Translations under genes and position numbers: made by a program
The notes under the pieces: generated by a model
The model's database searches: none
The model's input: the letters and a program-made list of their open reading frames with translations, nothing else
Told to the model about the DNA's origin: nothing
Assembly: GCA_025055455.1 (NCBI GenBank)
Contig: JANWXD010000001.1
Span: 248,001-312,000 of the forward strand
From: Bryobacteraceae bacterium
GTDB taxonomy: Bacteria > Acidobacteriota > Terriglobia > Bryobacterales > Bryobacteraceae
Direction: 5' to 3'
Length of the DNA stretch: 64,000 bases
Shown: positions 41,539 to 47,722 of the stretch, in pieces
Position numbering within the stretch: position 1 is the first letter of the stretch
Layout: each line of letters starts with the position of its first letter

Positions 41539-43647
41539 ATGCAGCACAAGCCAATCAAATATGTCGAAAAAGCACTGACCTACGTGGCCAAAGGGGCGTG
41601 GGTGGTGTTCGACCGCCTCAATCAGATCCGCCCGAACCCGTCGTTCACGCCGAAGTGGTCCGACAAGCCGCTGTTGAAATCATGGGAGAAAACCAAGCCG
41701 CCGCTCGGATGGCCGCGCGAGACCGATTCGCTGTGCCCGCGCTGCGTCCCGGAGATCCGCAAGGAGATCCTGGAGGGCAAACGACCCTTGTCGGATCTGA
41801 TCGAGAAGCGCCCCGGGGAAATCAAGGCGCAGATCATCGAGCGAGACGGCAAGATCCTGATGGTGAAGGACTGCCCGGTGCACGGTCATTTCGAGGACGT
41901 CATGTCCATCGATGTGGCGTTCTTTAAGCACTTGGAGGAGATGTTCCCGGGCCGCGACATCCGCTGCCACAACGACGAGAAGCTCCACCGGCACGGTTCG
42001 AGCACGATCACGCACGGCCGCGGGGCGGTGCTGACGATTGACCTCACCAACCGCTGCAATATGATGTGCGACCCCTGCTTCATGGACGCCAACCAGGTGG
42101 GGTTCGTGCACGAGCTGACCTGGGAGGAGATCAAGACGCTGTTGGACAACGCGATCACGATCAAACCCAAGCGGCAGATGTCGGTGCAGTTTTCCGGCGG
42201 CGAGCCCACGTTGTCACCGTACTTTCTGGACGCGATCCGCTACGCCCGGAAAGTGGGGTACAACAGCGTGCAGGCGGCCACCAACGGCATCGAGTTCGCC
42301 AAGAGTCCGGAGTTTTGCCGGCAGGCTGCCGAGGCGGGTTTGCGGTACGCCTACTTGCAGTTTGACGGCATCGGCAACGCCGCCAACTCCCACCGCCACG
42401 TGGGCAATCTGTTCGACGTCAAGCTGCGCGCCATCGAGAATCTCTACCAAGCCGGGGTCGAGATCGTGCCGGTGACGACCATCATCAACGGCGTCAACAA
42501 CGAGCAGGTCGGCCGGATCGTTCAGTTTGCGCTGGACAATCCGAAACGCATCTCGTTCTGTTCGTTCCAGCCGGTTTCCTTCACCGGCCGGGACGAGGAG
42601 ATCAGCGACGAGCGCCGCATGGCGCAGCGCTACACGCTATCGCACTTGGCGCACGACGTCAAAAAGCAGACCGGCCTAGGCGAGCCCGCGCGGGACTGGT
42701 TCCCGCTGTCGTTCATGAGCACCTTCATGGACTGGGCGGACTTGGTGCACGGGCCGCAGGCGGAGTGGGGCCAGTTGAGTTGCGGCTGCCATCCCAACTG
42801 CGGCGTCGGCCTCGCCATCATGGTGGACAAGGAAACGCGGGAGGCGGCGCCGATTCCGTCCTTCATCAACGTGGACCGGCTGGCGAAAGACGTCATGCGC
42901 ATCAACGACGCGGCCCGGGGCAAGTTCCTTTCCGTGCTCGGCATGGCGCTGGCGCTGCTGCGCAACTACGATCCCTTCAAGACCACCAGGCATTTCACGA
43001 TCTTCGACCTCTACAAGAAGTTCGACAAAAGCTTCGGCATCACGGGCCGCGACTATGGCAAGGTGACGGCAGACCGCACGCGGGAAGACATCGAGAAGCG
43101 GCGGCGCGACCGGTGGAACGTGCTGTTCATCGCCGGGATGTGGTTCCAGGATCTGTTCAACTACGACTTCCGGCGCACCGAGCAGTGCATCATTCCCTAC
43201 GCCACACAGGAGGGCGAGATTTCCTTCTGCGCTTACAACACCGGCATCGGCTGGCGCCAGATCGTCGAGAAGATGCACATGACAGCCACGCTCACCAAGT
43301 GGTACGAGGAGCATGGCCGTCATGAGATTTTTGCGGGCGGTAGGAATGTGAAACTGGACAGCACCGAACACACCCTGCTGTTGCGCAAGGAATTGATCAC
43401 CGAAGAAGCGCAGAAGGACCTGGACCGGCTGGGGATCGCCAAGACGGCCCGGGAAGAAAAGCTGCGCGCCCGCAACGAGCGGCTGCGCAAAGAGGCCGAG
43501 AATGCCCGCATGGCGCGCTTGTACCGTAAGTACGTGCTCAAGGAGCCGGATGTCGGCGAGCTGGTCCAGATCCAAGGGCTGAACGGAAGCTCGAACGGGA
43601 CGAACCAGGAGGCAACGGAAACGCTGGCCGTCACGTCGTCGCGTTGA
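41539..43647 (+). CDS. Radical SAM protein of the Tes/Mss-like group
   Basis: A 702-residue radical SAM enzyme. The cluster motif is CNMMCDPC (first Cys at residue 173), within LTIDLTNRCNMMCDPCFMDA. Upstream is a Cys-containing domain (SLCPRC, then VKDCPVHGHFED). Downstream are QFSGGEPTLSPYFLDAIRYA, YAYLQFDGIG, FCSFQPVSFTGR, an extra Cys trio (SCGCHPNCGVG) and a late segment EISFCAYNTGIGWRQI. This whole pattern matches the archaeal tetraether synthase Tes (MJ0619-type) and bacterial membrane-spanning lipid synthases (Mss). The extra cysteines suggest auxiliary iron-sulfur sites. The C-terminus is a charged helix and a Ser/Asn-rich tail. A role in joining or modifying fatty-acyl chains is inferred, not shown. 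Confidence 0.85.
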   Translation: MQHKPIKYVEKALTYVAKGAWVVFDRLNQIRPNPSFTPKWSDKPLLKSWEKTKPPLGWPRETDSLCPRCVPEIRKEILEGKRPLSDLIEKRPGEIKAQIIERDGKILMVKDCPVHGHFEDVMSIDVAFFKHLEEMFPGRDIRCHNDEKLHRHGSSTITHGRGAVLTIDLTNRCNMMCDPCFMDANQVGFVHELTWEEIKTLLDNAITIKPKRQMSVQFSGGEPTLSPYFLDAIRYARKVGYNSVQAATNGIEFAKSPEFCRQAAEAGLRYAYLQFDGIGNAANSHRHVGNLFDVKLRAIENLYQAGVEIVPVTTIINGVNNEQVGRIVQFALDNPKRISFCSFQPVSFTGRDEEISDERRMAQRYTLSHLAHDVKKQTGLGEPARDWFPLSFMSTFMDWADLVHGPQAEWGQLSCGCHPNCGVGLAIMVDKETREAAPIPSFINVDRLAKDVMRINDAARGKFLSVLGMALALLRNYDPFKTTRHFTIFDLYKKFDKSFGITGRDYGKVTADRTREDIEKRRRDRWNVLFIAGMWFQDLFNYDFRRTEQCIIPYATQEGEISFCAYNTGIGWRQIVEKMHMTATLTKWYEEHGRHEIFAGGRNVKLDSTEHTLLLRKELITEEAQKDLDRLGIAKTAREEKLRARNERLRKEAENARMARLYRKYVLKEPDVGELVQIQGLNGSSNGTNQEATETLAVTSSR

Positions 43648-43706: not shown

Positions 43707-44969
43707 ATGCATGCCGTTCAACCGCAGGAGACTGTCCCGGCGTTCCGCGTTGACGTAGCGGTGCACGATCTGGTCATGCGGCCCACCGAGCGCACCACGC
43801 TGCGCCCTTCGCCCGTGCCGCAATTTCTTCCAGATCCCGTCTATCCGCTGCGAGATGACGACGACGAGCCGAGCCGGCTGGTCTATCATTGGAACAACGG
43901 CTGGCGGGCGTTCCGCCGCTGGTTGGTGCCCTATATCAAATCGCGGATTTTGAGCCACGAGTTCCGGCCCATCCTCTCCTATCTGTTCACCGACTATAAG
44001 TGCAACCTGGATTGCCATTACTGCTGGGCCTTCAACAATCAGGTCAAAGGCATGACCGAGGATACGGCCAAGCGGGCGATTGACTGGCTCCATACTACGG
44101 GCTGCCGGGTGATCGCGTTGATGGGGGGCGAGCCGCTGCTGCGGCCGCATTTCATCCACAAGATCGTCTATTACGGTACCAAACGCGACTTTTTCGTCTA
44201 TCTGCCCACGAACGGACGCCTCATGCGGCCCGACGTGATTGACCGCGTGGGTGATGCCGGCGTCGCAGCCATCAATCTGGCCGTGGACTGCGTCGACGAA
44301 AAACCGGGGCTTCCCAAAGCCCTCAACCCGATTCGAAAGAACTTCGAGTATTTGGTGAAGCGGCAGCAGCGCTACGGCTACATGGTGTTTTTCAACATCA
44401 ACATCTGCCGCAACAACATCGAGGACGTCAAAATCCTCACCGAAATCGCCCACGACCATGGCATCTCGACCGACTACCACATCAACGAGACGCCGATGAT
44501 CGAGCAGAGCCACTTCCAGCACTATCGGGACAACCCCACCTATCTGCGCCCGGAAGACTTCCCCAGAGTGGACGAGCTGCTCGATTACTTGATCGAAAAG
44601 AACCGTCAAGGCTATATCATGGTGAACTCCAAGCGGCACTTGGCCACCATGAAAGACTTCATGCGCGGCAAGATCATGCGCCCCTGGAATTGCCGGGCCG
44701 GTTGGAATTCTCTGGTGATCCGGGTGGATGGAACGATCGCCCCCTGCTTCCCCATGTACTCGGCCAATTATGACTGGGGCACGATCGAGAACCACAAGTT
44801 CGATTTCAACCAACTTCAGGAAATGAAAATGTCGTGCACGAAGCACTGCCTGTCGACGTGCCAGTACGTTCTGGGCTACTACTACAACAACGCCCACGTG
44901 TTGCGCTGGATCCTCAAGCAGGCTCTGCACGGCTTTCAGGGAATCCGGGCAGCGGCGGCGCAGGCTTGA
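43707..44969 (+). CDS. Radical SAM protein with SPASM-like C-terminus
   Basis: A 420-residue radical SAM enzyme, second gene of the four-gene run. The cluster motif is CNLDCHYC (first Cys at residue 99) in FTDYKCNLDCHYCWAFNN, followed by VIALMGGEPLLRP and LPTNGRLMRPDVIDRVGDAG. The C-terminal region PWNCRAGWNSLVIRVDGTIA then CFPMY and CTKHCLSTCQYVLGYY supplies further cysteines, as in SPASM domains that hold auxiliary clusters. The N-terminal 95 residues are a Pro/Arg-rich extension without a known fold. Spacing to the neighbours is 59 and 47 bases, consistent with one operon. Substrate is unknown. Confidence 0.85.
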   Translation: MHAVQPQETVPAFRVDVAVHDLVMRPTERTTLRPSPVPQFLPDPVYPLRDDDDEPSRLVYHWNNGWRAFRRWLVPYIKSRILSHEFRPILSYLFTDYKCNLDCHYCWAFNNQVKGMTEDTAKRAIDWLHTTGCRVIALMGGEPLLRPHFIHKIVYYGTKRDFFVYLPTNGRLMRPDVIDRVGDAGVAAINLAVDCVDEKPGLPKALNPIRKNFEYLVKRQQRYGYMVFFNINICRNNIEDVKILTEIAHDHGISTDYHINETPMIEQSHFQHYRDNPTYLRPEDFPRVDELLDYLIEKNRQGYIMVNSKRHLATMKDFMRGKIMRPWNCRAGWNSLVIRVDGTIAPCFPMYSANYDWGTIENHKFDFNQLQEMKMSCTKHCLSTCQYVLGYYYNNAHVLRWILKQALHGFQGIRAAAAQA

Positions 44970-45016: not shown

Positions 45017-46678
45017 ATGAGCGGCAGGAAGATCGTACTCGTAGCGTCCTCGACCGAAGCGAACGAATATTCTCAGGACTGTTGGATTCAGATGCTGTTC
45101 GCCACGCTTCCCGCCCCGATGGCGAAACACTTCGTGAATCTCAAGGTGCTGGAAAACGAGACTTGGCCCGACGGGCAGGCAAAATACGTCCCCAACGGCC
45201 TGCGGATCGTCGAAGCGATCCTGCTCCGGGAGTTCCCACCCGAGGACATCGCGGTCTGTTATGCAGACCAGATGGACCAGTTCATCGGGGACGACACGCG
45301 CGCCGTGGGCTTGCACGCCCACAACCCAATGGGGATCACGTTTGCCACAGACGTCTACGCGCACTTGGCGGGACCGCAAGTGGAGCCGCTGAACGCCGCC
45401 GAATTCAAACGCGCCATTCTTCATCCGGCGCTCCGCCGGCATAAGTCACACCTGAAACTTCTGGTCGGGGGCCCGGGGGCCTGGCAGCTCGAACAGACGG
45501 GAATGCACCGGGAATGGGGCATCGATTGCTTGGTGGACGGCGAGGCCGAGCACCTGATCCTCGACCTCTTCCGCAAGGCGGTGGCTGGCGAGCCCCTGCC
45601 GCCGGTGGTCAAAGGCGCCTCCCCGGAAAGTCCGGACCAGATTCCGGTCACGCGCCACCGCTCGACCCTCGGCGTGGTGGAGATCACGCGGGGCTGTGGG
45701 CGGGGCTGCCAATTCTGCGGCGTGGCGGTGCGGCGCGGCCAGAGCATCCCGCTGGAGAACATCCTGGAAAACGTCCGGGTGAACGTGGCCGACGGCGCCG
45801 ACACGATCATGCTCACCACCGAAGATCTGTTCTTGTACGAGCAAGGCCCACGCTTCACGCCGAACCGGAAGGCGCTGTCGCGGCTGTTCGAGGCGGTGGC
45901 GGCTGTGCCGGGCGTCCAGTTCATCCACTTGACGCACGCCACTATGGCGCCGGTCGTCCAGGACCCGACGATGATCGAAGAGATCACACCGTACACGGTG
46001 GGCATGAGCCGCAAGCGGCACCCCGCCTCCACCCACCCCGAACGCCGCTATGCGAGCGTGATCATCGGTTTGGAGACCGGCTCGGTCCGCTTGTTCAAGA
46101 AATACATGCCGGGCAAGGCTTATCCGTACCGTCCGGAGCAGTGGCCCGACGTGGTCTTGAAAGGAATGGAAATTCTCAACCGTCACAATTGGTTTCCATT
46201 CTGCACGTGGATTCTCGGCCTGCCCGGAGAGACGGACGCCGACACGCGGGAATCGCTGGATCTGCTGCACGCGCTCAAGGGCGCCAAGTGGTGCGTCGTG
46301 CCCACCTTGTTCACCCCTTTGGAAGACACGCGGCTCGCCAATCGGGAAGCGGCCAAGCTACCTCAGCTCACGGATCTGCAGTGGGAGTTTTTCTTCACCT
46401 GTTGGCGTTACAATCTCGATTTTTACCGCGGCGCCAAGCAGAAGCTTTTGTTCGGCCTCGGAGTTCCCATCTACTATTACCTGCTCGGCCGGAAGCTGTT
46501 CGGTGAAAAGATCAAATACCCTCTGTGGCGCTTGGCCCACGTTCCGGAGTGGATTTTGCGGCGGCGCCTGTACCTGGACCTAGACCGTCCAGCGGTGCGC
46601 TTCACTGTCCCGAAACATGTGCCCCTGCCCCAAGGGACGATGACACCGCACGACGCGAGCCTGGTAACCTTGCAATAA
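45017..46678 (+). CDS. Radical SAM protein with B12-binding-like N-terminal domain
   Basis: A 553-residue protein, third in the run. Residues 1-200 form a Rossmann-like domain resembling the cobalamin-binding part of class B radical SAM enzymes (VCYADQMDQFI, GDDTRAVGLHAHNP, LKLLVGGPGAWQLEQT), but the classical DxHxxG motif is not seen. The cluster motif is CGRGCQFC (first Cys at 227) in GVVEITRGCGRGCQFCGVAV. Later come VIIGLETGSVRLFKKYMPG and FCTWILGLPGETDADTRESL, typical of the B12-radical SAM (Elp3-like barrel) group. The C-terminal part has hydrophobic helices (LFGLGVPIYYYLLGRKLF) that could touch the membrane. The start at 45017 follows a GGAGA-like site. Confidence 0.85.
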   Translation: MSGRKIVLVASSTEANEYSQDCWIQMLFATLPAPMAKHFVNLKVLENETWPDGQAKYVPNGLRIVEAILLREFPPEDIAVCYADQMDQFIGDDTRAVGLHAHNPMGITFATDVYAHLAGPQVEPLNAAEFKRAILHPALRRHKSHLKLLVGGPGAWQLEQTGMHREWGIDCLVDGEAEHLILDLFRKAVAGEPLPPVVKGASPESPDQIPVTRHRSTLGVVEITRGCGRGCQFCGVAVRRGQSIPLENILENVRVNVADGADTIMLTTEDLFLYEQGPRFTPNRKALSRLFEAVAAVPGVQFIHLTHATMAPVVQDPTMIEEITPYTVGMSRKRHPASTHPERRYASVIIGLETGSVRLFKKYMPGKAYPYRPEQWPDVVLKGMEILNRHNWFPFCTWILGLPGETDADTRESLDLLHALKGAKWCVVPTLFTPLEDTRLANREAAKLPQLTDLQWEFFFTCWRYNLDFYRGAKQKLLFGLGVPIYYYLLGRKLFGEKIKYPLWRLAHVPEWILRRRLYLDLDRPAVRFTVPKHVPLPQGTMTPHDASLVTLQ

Positions 46679-46717: not shown

Positions 46718-47722
46718 GTGAAACACCGCGACGTGTTGCCCGCGTGGGGGCGGGTTCTGCGGGGTTACCGGCCTCTGCTGTCGGTCGAGATCACCAAAGA
46801 GTGCCCGCTGCACTGCCCGGGATGCTACGCGTACGAGCCGATGCATCTGGGGGCGAACAGCCGCCCGTTAAGGGAACTGAGCGACTACCGAGGGGACGAC
46901 TTAGTCCATGGCATGCTGGCGCTGGTGCGTCGCTTCCGCCCCATCCACCTCTCCATCGTCGGCGGCGAACCGTTGGTGCGCTGGCGGGAACTCGACGTAT
47001 TGCTCCCCAAGCTGGACGCCATGGGCATCGAGGTGCAATTGGTCACGAGCGCTGTGCGCCCCGTCCCGGCCCATTGGGCGGCGCTGAAGTGTCTGCACCT
47101 AGTGGTGTCCGTGGACGGGCTTCCCCCCGAGCATGACCGCCGTCGCGCCCCCGCCACCTACGATCGCATACTGAAACACATCGCCGGCCACCAGGTCATC
47201 GTGCATTGCACGGTGACGCGCCAACAACTGGCGCGACCGACCTATCTGCACGAATTCGCCCAGCTGTGGTCCCAGCGACCCGAGGCGCGCAAAATTTGGT
47301 TCAGTCTGTATACCCCACAGGAGGGGGAGTGTTCTGCAGAGCGGCTTCGCCCCGAAGACCGCAAGGAAGCCCTCCGGCAGTTGGCGGAGTTAGCCCCGCT
47401 CTTCCCCAAAGTGCAGCTGTCACGGCGCATGCTCGACGGCTTGGCGCATCCACCCCGCTTCCCGGAGGAGTGCTTGTTTGCTCGCGTCACGCATTGTGTG
47501 ACCGCGGATCTGAAAACCGAGATCCATCCGTGTCAGTTCGGCGGCCGGCCGGTGTGTTCCGAATGCGGGTGCATCGCCTCTGCCGGACTGGCCGCGCTGG
47601 CCCGCTACCGCATCGCCGGGCTCATTCCAGTCATGGCCATATTCGACGCCTCGCGGCGCTTGGGAGAGCAGCTCCGGCAGCGTTTGGACGGGCATCAAAA
47701 CGGTGGGCTTCAAACCCTCTAG
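46718..47722 (+). CDS. Radical SAM protein with C-terminal Cys cluster
   Basis: A 334-residue protein, last in the run. The cluster motif is CPLHCPGC (first Cys at 29) in SVEITKECPLHCPGCYAYEP, followed by LSIVGGEPLVRWRELDVLLP and LVVSVDGLPPEHDRR. The barrel continues with FSLYTPQEGECSAERLRPED. The C-terminus has further cysteines (THCVTADLKTEIHPCQFGG, then VCSECGC), suggesting at least one auxiliary cluster of SPASM or twitch type. The gene begins 39 bases after the third radical SAM gene, with a GGCGAGGAGAGG ribosome site. Its substrate is unknown; it probably completes the same pathway. Confidence 0.85.
   Translation: MKHRDVLPAWGRVLRGYRPLLSVEITKECPLHCPGCYAYEPMHLGANSRPLRELSDYRGDDLVHGMLALVRRFRPIHLSIVGGEPLVRWRELDVLLPKLDAMGIEVQLVTSAVRPVPAHWAALKCLHLVVSVDGLPPEHDRRRAPATYDRILKHIAGHQVIVHCTVTRQQLARPTYLHEFAQLWSQRPEARKIWFSLYTPQEGECSAERLRPEDRKEALRQLAELAPLFPKVQLSRRMLDGLAHPPRFPEECLFARVTHCVTADLKTEIHPCQFGGRPVCSECGCIASAGLAALARYRIAGLIPVMAIFDASRRLGEQLRQRLDGHQNGGLQTL

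Follow-up and report, generated by a model that had tools for sequence, protein, structure and literature searches.

The stretch of Bryobacteraceae bacterium DNA analysed here (the window; 64,000 nucleotides, contig JANWXD010000001.1, positions 248,001 to 312,000) shows on the forward strand, at 41539..43647, an open reading frame that runs from ATG to stop with zero internal stops and encodes a 702-residue radical S-adenosylmethionine (SAM) protein of the tetraether synthase (Tes) group, proposed below as an iso-diabolic acid synthase. Its GC content at third codon positions is 0.875, in a surrounding window of 65% GC. The closest named database relatives belong to Bryobacteraceae and Terriglobia contigs (78-82% identity), so the source is an acidobacterium. 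Pfam finds a Radical_SAM domain (PF04055) and an HMPTM-type N-terminal zinc ribbon (PF23545), and the top NCBIfam family is the Tes model NF045702 (318.8 bits, E 5.6e-95), whose curated cut-off of 450 bits is not reached. Comparison by phmmer with the archaeal Tes MJ0619, or GDGT-MAS (PDB 7tol), gives E 6e-61, and the motif pattern is therefore not due to chance. All the motifs quoted in an earlier note on this DNA are present in the translation: CPRC (66-69), CPVHG (112-116), CNMMCDPC (173-180), QFSGGEPT, YLQFDG, FQPVSFTGR, CGCHPNC (415-421) and FCAYN (563-567). That note took them as the full pattern of archaeal Tes, which the score and a missing metal site described below contradict.

The Tes-type proteins of Acidobacteriota were divided in three groups: clade A contains the genes above the Tes cut-off, clade B contains those matching a profile built from aligned window-type proteins at E <= 1e-170, and clade C is formed by a further group of Tes/TrsS-like paralogues. 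Among solved structures, only MJ0619/GDGT-MAS (7TOL/7TOM), matched by the clade profile at E 1.7e-90, is closely related to clade B. Compared by overall fold, the AlphaFold (AF2) model, with a mean predicted local distance difference test score of 78.6 and low values near the metal sites, aligns with 7tom over 478 of 498 residues (Z 32.7, root mean square deviation 3.4), and the next-best fold is MoaA (Z 18). Clade B differs from the archaeal enzyme by a C-terminal tail and by about 60 additional residues preceding the rubredoxin site. This extension opens with a helix (residues 5-30, 41551..41628), aligned in clade B, which is amphipathic according to the secondary structure of the model and its hydrophobic moment (~0.5) and may be a membrane contact.

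Metal sites and catalytic residues were compared in an alignment of 49 clade B proteins, 30 clade A proteins, 20 other paralogues and MJ0619. The archaeal enzyme binds a rubredoxin iron through C9, C12, C33 and H36, an N-terminal [Fe4S4] cluster through C73, C77, C80 and a histidine, a radical SAM cluster, and also a C-terminal [Fe4S4] cluster with a labile Met439 that becomes bonded to the lipid. Tyr459 is invariant among archaea, although variants of Met439 and Tyr459 are still active (PMC9433317). Clade A retains all four metal sites and the catalytic residues, while clade B, about 35% identical to clade A, shows three. The rubredoxin-type site of the window protein is formed by C66, C69, C112 and H115 (41734..41883; PF23545), aligned to C33/H36 of MJ0619 and present in 49/49 clade B proteins. 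The N-terminal cluster is lost: the columns of C73, C77 and C80 hold a gap, histidine or serine (alanine in one case) in the window protein and the 48 other clade B members, against cysteine in 30/30 clade A proteins, and in the window protein H150 and H152 stand at Tes cysteine positions (41986..42003). The radical SAM cluster motif CX3CX2C (C173, C177 and C180; 42055..42078, PF04055) is invariant in clade B, as are the SAM-site residues F181, G221, Y272, D276, Q344, S347 and R351 in window numbering; in MJ0619 numbering the invariant positions are F106, G145, Y195, D199, V236, Q268, S271, T273 and R275, and T238 is kept in 47/49. The CGCHPNC motif (42781..42801) contains C421, equivalent to C338 of MJ0619, and also C415, which outside clade B is shared only by the sister sequences L032 and L034. 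Downstream, the region 43138..43230 contains M534, C550, Y554 and C564, equivalent to Met439, C455, Tyr459 and C470, all of them present in 49/49 clade B and 30/30 clade A proteins. From the alignment, C421, C550 and C564 are assigned as putative ligands of the C-terminal cluster, because they are the C-terminal cysteines that MJ0619, clade A and clade B all retain. The residues of this auxiliary cluster that are important for coupling are thus retained. The remaining paralogues, TrsS included, are alike in the N-terminal domains and the radical SAM core, but most of them have lost Met439 and Tyr459, and several lack the C-cluster cysteines.

The position of clade B was established in family trees of 35 and 100 sequences, which are concordant. 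In the 35-sequence tree clade B is monophyletic (100/100) and joins two clade A sequences, L032 and L034 (100/100), within the bacterial Tes homologues, and the TrsS-side paralogues form a separate branch (99/98). A grouping of archaeal and clade A Tes that leaves out clade B is rejected by the approximately unbiased test (p-AU 0.0005). Clade B is therefore nested among the Koribacter/Solibacter-type Tes proteins, with which it shares a common ancestor, and the window protein falls within the Tes group and not in a clade with another proven reaction. A substrate other than a lipid, such as a peptide, a selenoprotein of the TrsS type or a cofactor, is very improbable in view of these results. 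The protein does match the TrsS model NF045646, more weakly than the Tes model, and the adjoining radical SAM/SPASM genes resemble peptide maturases; however, the 207 bits obtained lie below the TrsS cut-off of 490 bits, the TrsS-side proteins lose Tyr459 or Met439, and the structural match to a lipid enzyme extends over the whole chain. Identity with TrsS itself is ruled out by this score and by the residues. A pterin methylase is ruled out on the same two grounds, and the pterin annotation of MJ0619 is uncorroborated in the structure paper (PMC9433317).

The same assembly shows a second match to the Tes model, G000:C112:78796-80265 (L001; L206:8724-10961), which scores 580 bits, over the cut-off, and has all four metal sites. 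Its neighbours encode an exonuclease VII, an IMP dehydrogenase, an Nramp transporter and a DUF481 protein, none of them lipid-like. Distribution was determined in 297 Acidobacteriota genomes, 172 of which contain some Tes-model match at E <= 1e-40. Clade B is present in 143 genomes, including 33/33 of the class of the window, and clade A in 35. Within the order of the window, Tes-type genes occur in 114 of 120 genomes, and clade A genes in 13. Given the second gene over the cut-off and these counts, the window gene does not correspond to archaeal Tes in this organism but is a separate and far more widespread paralogue. The earlier note's placement of a Tes-group enzyme in an acidobacterium stands, and the closest equivalent of archaeal Tes in this genome is the second gene. 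Clade B is found in all 30 sampled genomes of one family (f2, taken to be Acidobacteriaceae), in named Granulicella, Acidipila and Acidicapsa genomes, and in three Chloracidobacterium genomes, identified via the FMO protein. It is mostly single-copy. In a plasmid collection the relatives found were all remote, from haloarchaea and Persicobacter. Many members of family f21 (G141, G038, G105, G173 and others) show two clade B copies; the second (L059:8607-10589) shares about 52% identity with the window protein and takes a basal position in clade B.

This distribution can be set beside published lipid data, with which the link to acidobacterial iso-diabolic acid and tetraether-type lipids suggested in the earlier note agrees. 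Iso-diabolic acid makes up 12-30% of the fatty acids in Edaphobacter strains (PMC11354219) and 27-49% in Occallatibacter and relatives (PMC12935467), it has been found in Chloracidobacterium (PMC12816986) and Pyrinomonas (PMC4644332), and it is reported from subdivisions 1, 3, 4 and 6 (PMC13274423). Edaphobacter aggregans, with 26% iso-diabolic acid, has a single Tes homologue of 32% identity to a methanogen Tes, while the homologues of Koribacter and Solibacter show 42% and 40% (PMC8941075). Since the clade A proteins studied here are mostly 40-44% identical to MJ0619, the E. aggregans gene, judged by identity, most likely belongs to clade B.

From the fold, the kept residues, the nesting within Tes and the distribution compared with the lipid data, clade B is probably an iso-diabolic acid synthase, derived from bacterial Tes, which would link two iso-C15 acyl chains at their tail ends. 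It is the best candidate found here for acidobacterial iso-diabolic acid formation. If the enzyme works like its homologue MJ0619/GDGT-MAS, the radical SAM cluster would cleave a first SAM, hydrogen would be abstracted from the terminal carbon of one iso-C15 phospholipid acyl chain, and a sulfide in the C-terminal [Fe4S4] cluster would hold the resulting carbon radical. A second SAM would generate the radical of a second chain, which would displace the held chain and form the Csp3-Csp3 bond, giving iso-diabolic acid bound to two glycerols. We infer here a lipid substrate, an iso-C15 chain, an ester linkage, a coupling reaction and a dispensable N-terminal cluster. The complete proposal, that clade B is the iso-diabolic acid synthase of Acidobacteriota, a three-cofactor Tes without N-terminal cluster which had a single origin within bacterial Tes, was passed on by descent through a large part of the phylum, aerobic soil lineages included, and couples iso-C15 tails held in ester linkage, with clade A making tetraethers from diethers, has a little under an even chance of being correct in all its parts.

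Clade B could instead be a second synthase of branched glycerol dialkyl glycerol tetraethers (brGDGTs) acting on iso-C15 diethers and overlapping with the clade A enzyme, which appears quite improbable. Clade B and clade A genes are adjacent in several genomes, and Tes takes lipids regardless of the head group (PMC9433317). Solibacter usitatus, with two Tes homologues, makes brGDGTs, and iso-diabolic acid was not detected in it (PMC10087280). Set against this are the much higher frequency of clade B than of clade A and the lipids of cultured Terriglobia, which are rich in iso-diabolic acid, with brGDGTs scarce or absent in most (PMC13274423).

Several observations weigh against clade B as an iso-diabolic acid synthase. 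The most serious is S. usitatus itself, nearly all of whose relatives carry clade B. The match to the lipid data is at class level and partly phylogenetic, both traits being co-inherited, and no lineage negative for iso-diabolic acid was identified by name. The activity of bacterial Tes homologues is described as unconfirmed in a 2025 paper (PMC11868695), and no demonstration was found in the accessible literature. At 136 anchored clade B loci there is no general neighbour gene family, and none consistently related to lipids. In the protein itself, the SAM site lacks R210 and has D in place of N108, and the N-terminal [Fe4S4] cluster is gone. The stem of clade B is also long (1.5-1.95 changes per column, 1.95 in the 100-sequence tree), which allows an altered reaction. 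These changes in the protein, the extra C415 and the wide distribution, with a true Tes present separately in this genome, would be accounted for by a derived Tes-group enzyme that still acts on lipid tails but with a different chemistry, for example cross-linking within the chain, desaturation or insertion of sulfur from the C-terminal cluster. Such an enzyme is nevertheless unlikely, as no clade B protein departs from the Met439 and Tyr459 counterparts or from any of the cysteines assigned to the C-cluster, a constancy that the more distant paralogues do not show.

Bacterial Tes homologues were proposed in 2022 as makers of membrane-spanning lipids (PMC8941075); what is new here is the recognition of clade B as a separate group, together with its changed set of cofactors and its agreement with the published lipid data. 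No description of a clade free of the N-terminal cluster was found in the literature searched, which did not extend to subscription papers and supplements. The bacterial Mss of Thermotogota and Bacillota resembles clade B by description, its proposed product being diabolic or iso-diabolic acid formed through tail-to-tail coupling, with a Tes-like catalytic architecture reported (PMC13274423). The genome of Thermotoga maritima, a diabolic acid maker, shows no Tes-model match at E <= 1e-40, whereas archaeal Tes genomes do match, and on this evidence its Mss seems to be more distant than clade B. The residue signature and the phylum-wide spread of clade B make it a testable candidate for the unproven acidobacterial coupling enzyme. 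Iso-diabolic acid, which in many soil acidobacteria accounts for a quarter to half of all fatty acids, resembles the chains of brGDGTs, which serve as fossil thermometers and pH meters. If clade B does form iso-diabolic acid, soil and sediment metagenomes could be scored for its makers (clade B) apart from the likely tetraether makers (clade A), two clades that archaeal Tes queries do not separate, and the N-terminal cluster of the archaeal enzyme would not be required for the coupling chemistry.

Downstream of the window gene there are three further radical SAM genes on the forward strand, with gaps of 39-59 bp. The first, rSAM2 (43707..44969), begins 59 bp downstream of the clade B gene and encodes a radical SAM/SPASM protein with no ortholog at E <= 1e-60 among 20 relatives. 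The second, rSAM3 (45017..46678), encodes a protein of 553 residues whose structure model is nearest to MgmA, a B12-class radical SAM C-methylase (Z 22.2). It is present in 33 of the 297 genomes and adjoins clade B again only in G132 (L062), where it lies directly downstream with 65% identity. The third, rSAM4 (46718..47722), encodes a protein of 334 residues and has a homologue directly upstream of clade B in L134. C5- and C6-methylated forms of iso-diabolic acid are known, and rSAM3 might, speculatively, be a candidate lipid-tail methylase that would fit them. A second copy of rSAM3, 42% identical, is located at G000:C56:19246-20823. The row of four radical SAM genes was rejected as a pathway, since among the 136 clade B loci rSAM3 adjoins elsewhere only in G132 and a homologue of rSAM4 lies upstream at one locus, and rSAM2 lacks orthologs in the relatives. 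At five Terriglobia loci a different radical SAM gene of about 340 residues lies directly upstream of clade B (L054:7532-8626, L062:6377-7426, L101:6547-7569, L115:6915-7937 and L141:6790-7953), and its products are mostly 64-74% identical to one another. Clade B and clade A genes follow each other in this order on the same strand, in an operon-like manner, in two families: in G417 they are about 170 bp apart (L207:8550-12586) and in G265 about 245 bp (L051:6818-11001). In G121 and G073 they lie within a few kb of each other. This proximity points to related roles of the two clades.

Clade C contains L174, L182, L165, L166, L181 and others, and two of its genes are found in Chloracidobacterium. 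Most members of this group lack Met439, Tyr459 or C-cluster cysteines. In the acidobacterial genome G085, a TrsS gene (L186:1483-2424) shows an in-frame TGA, as expected of the selenoprotein form.
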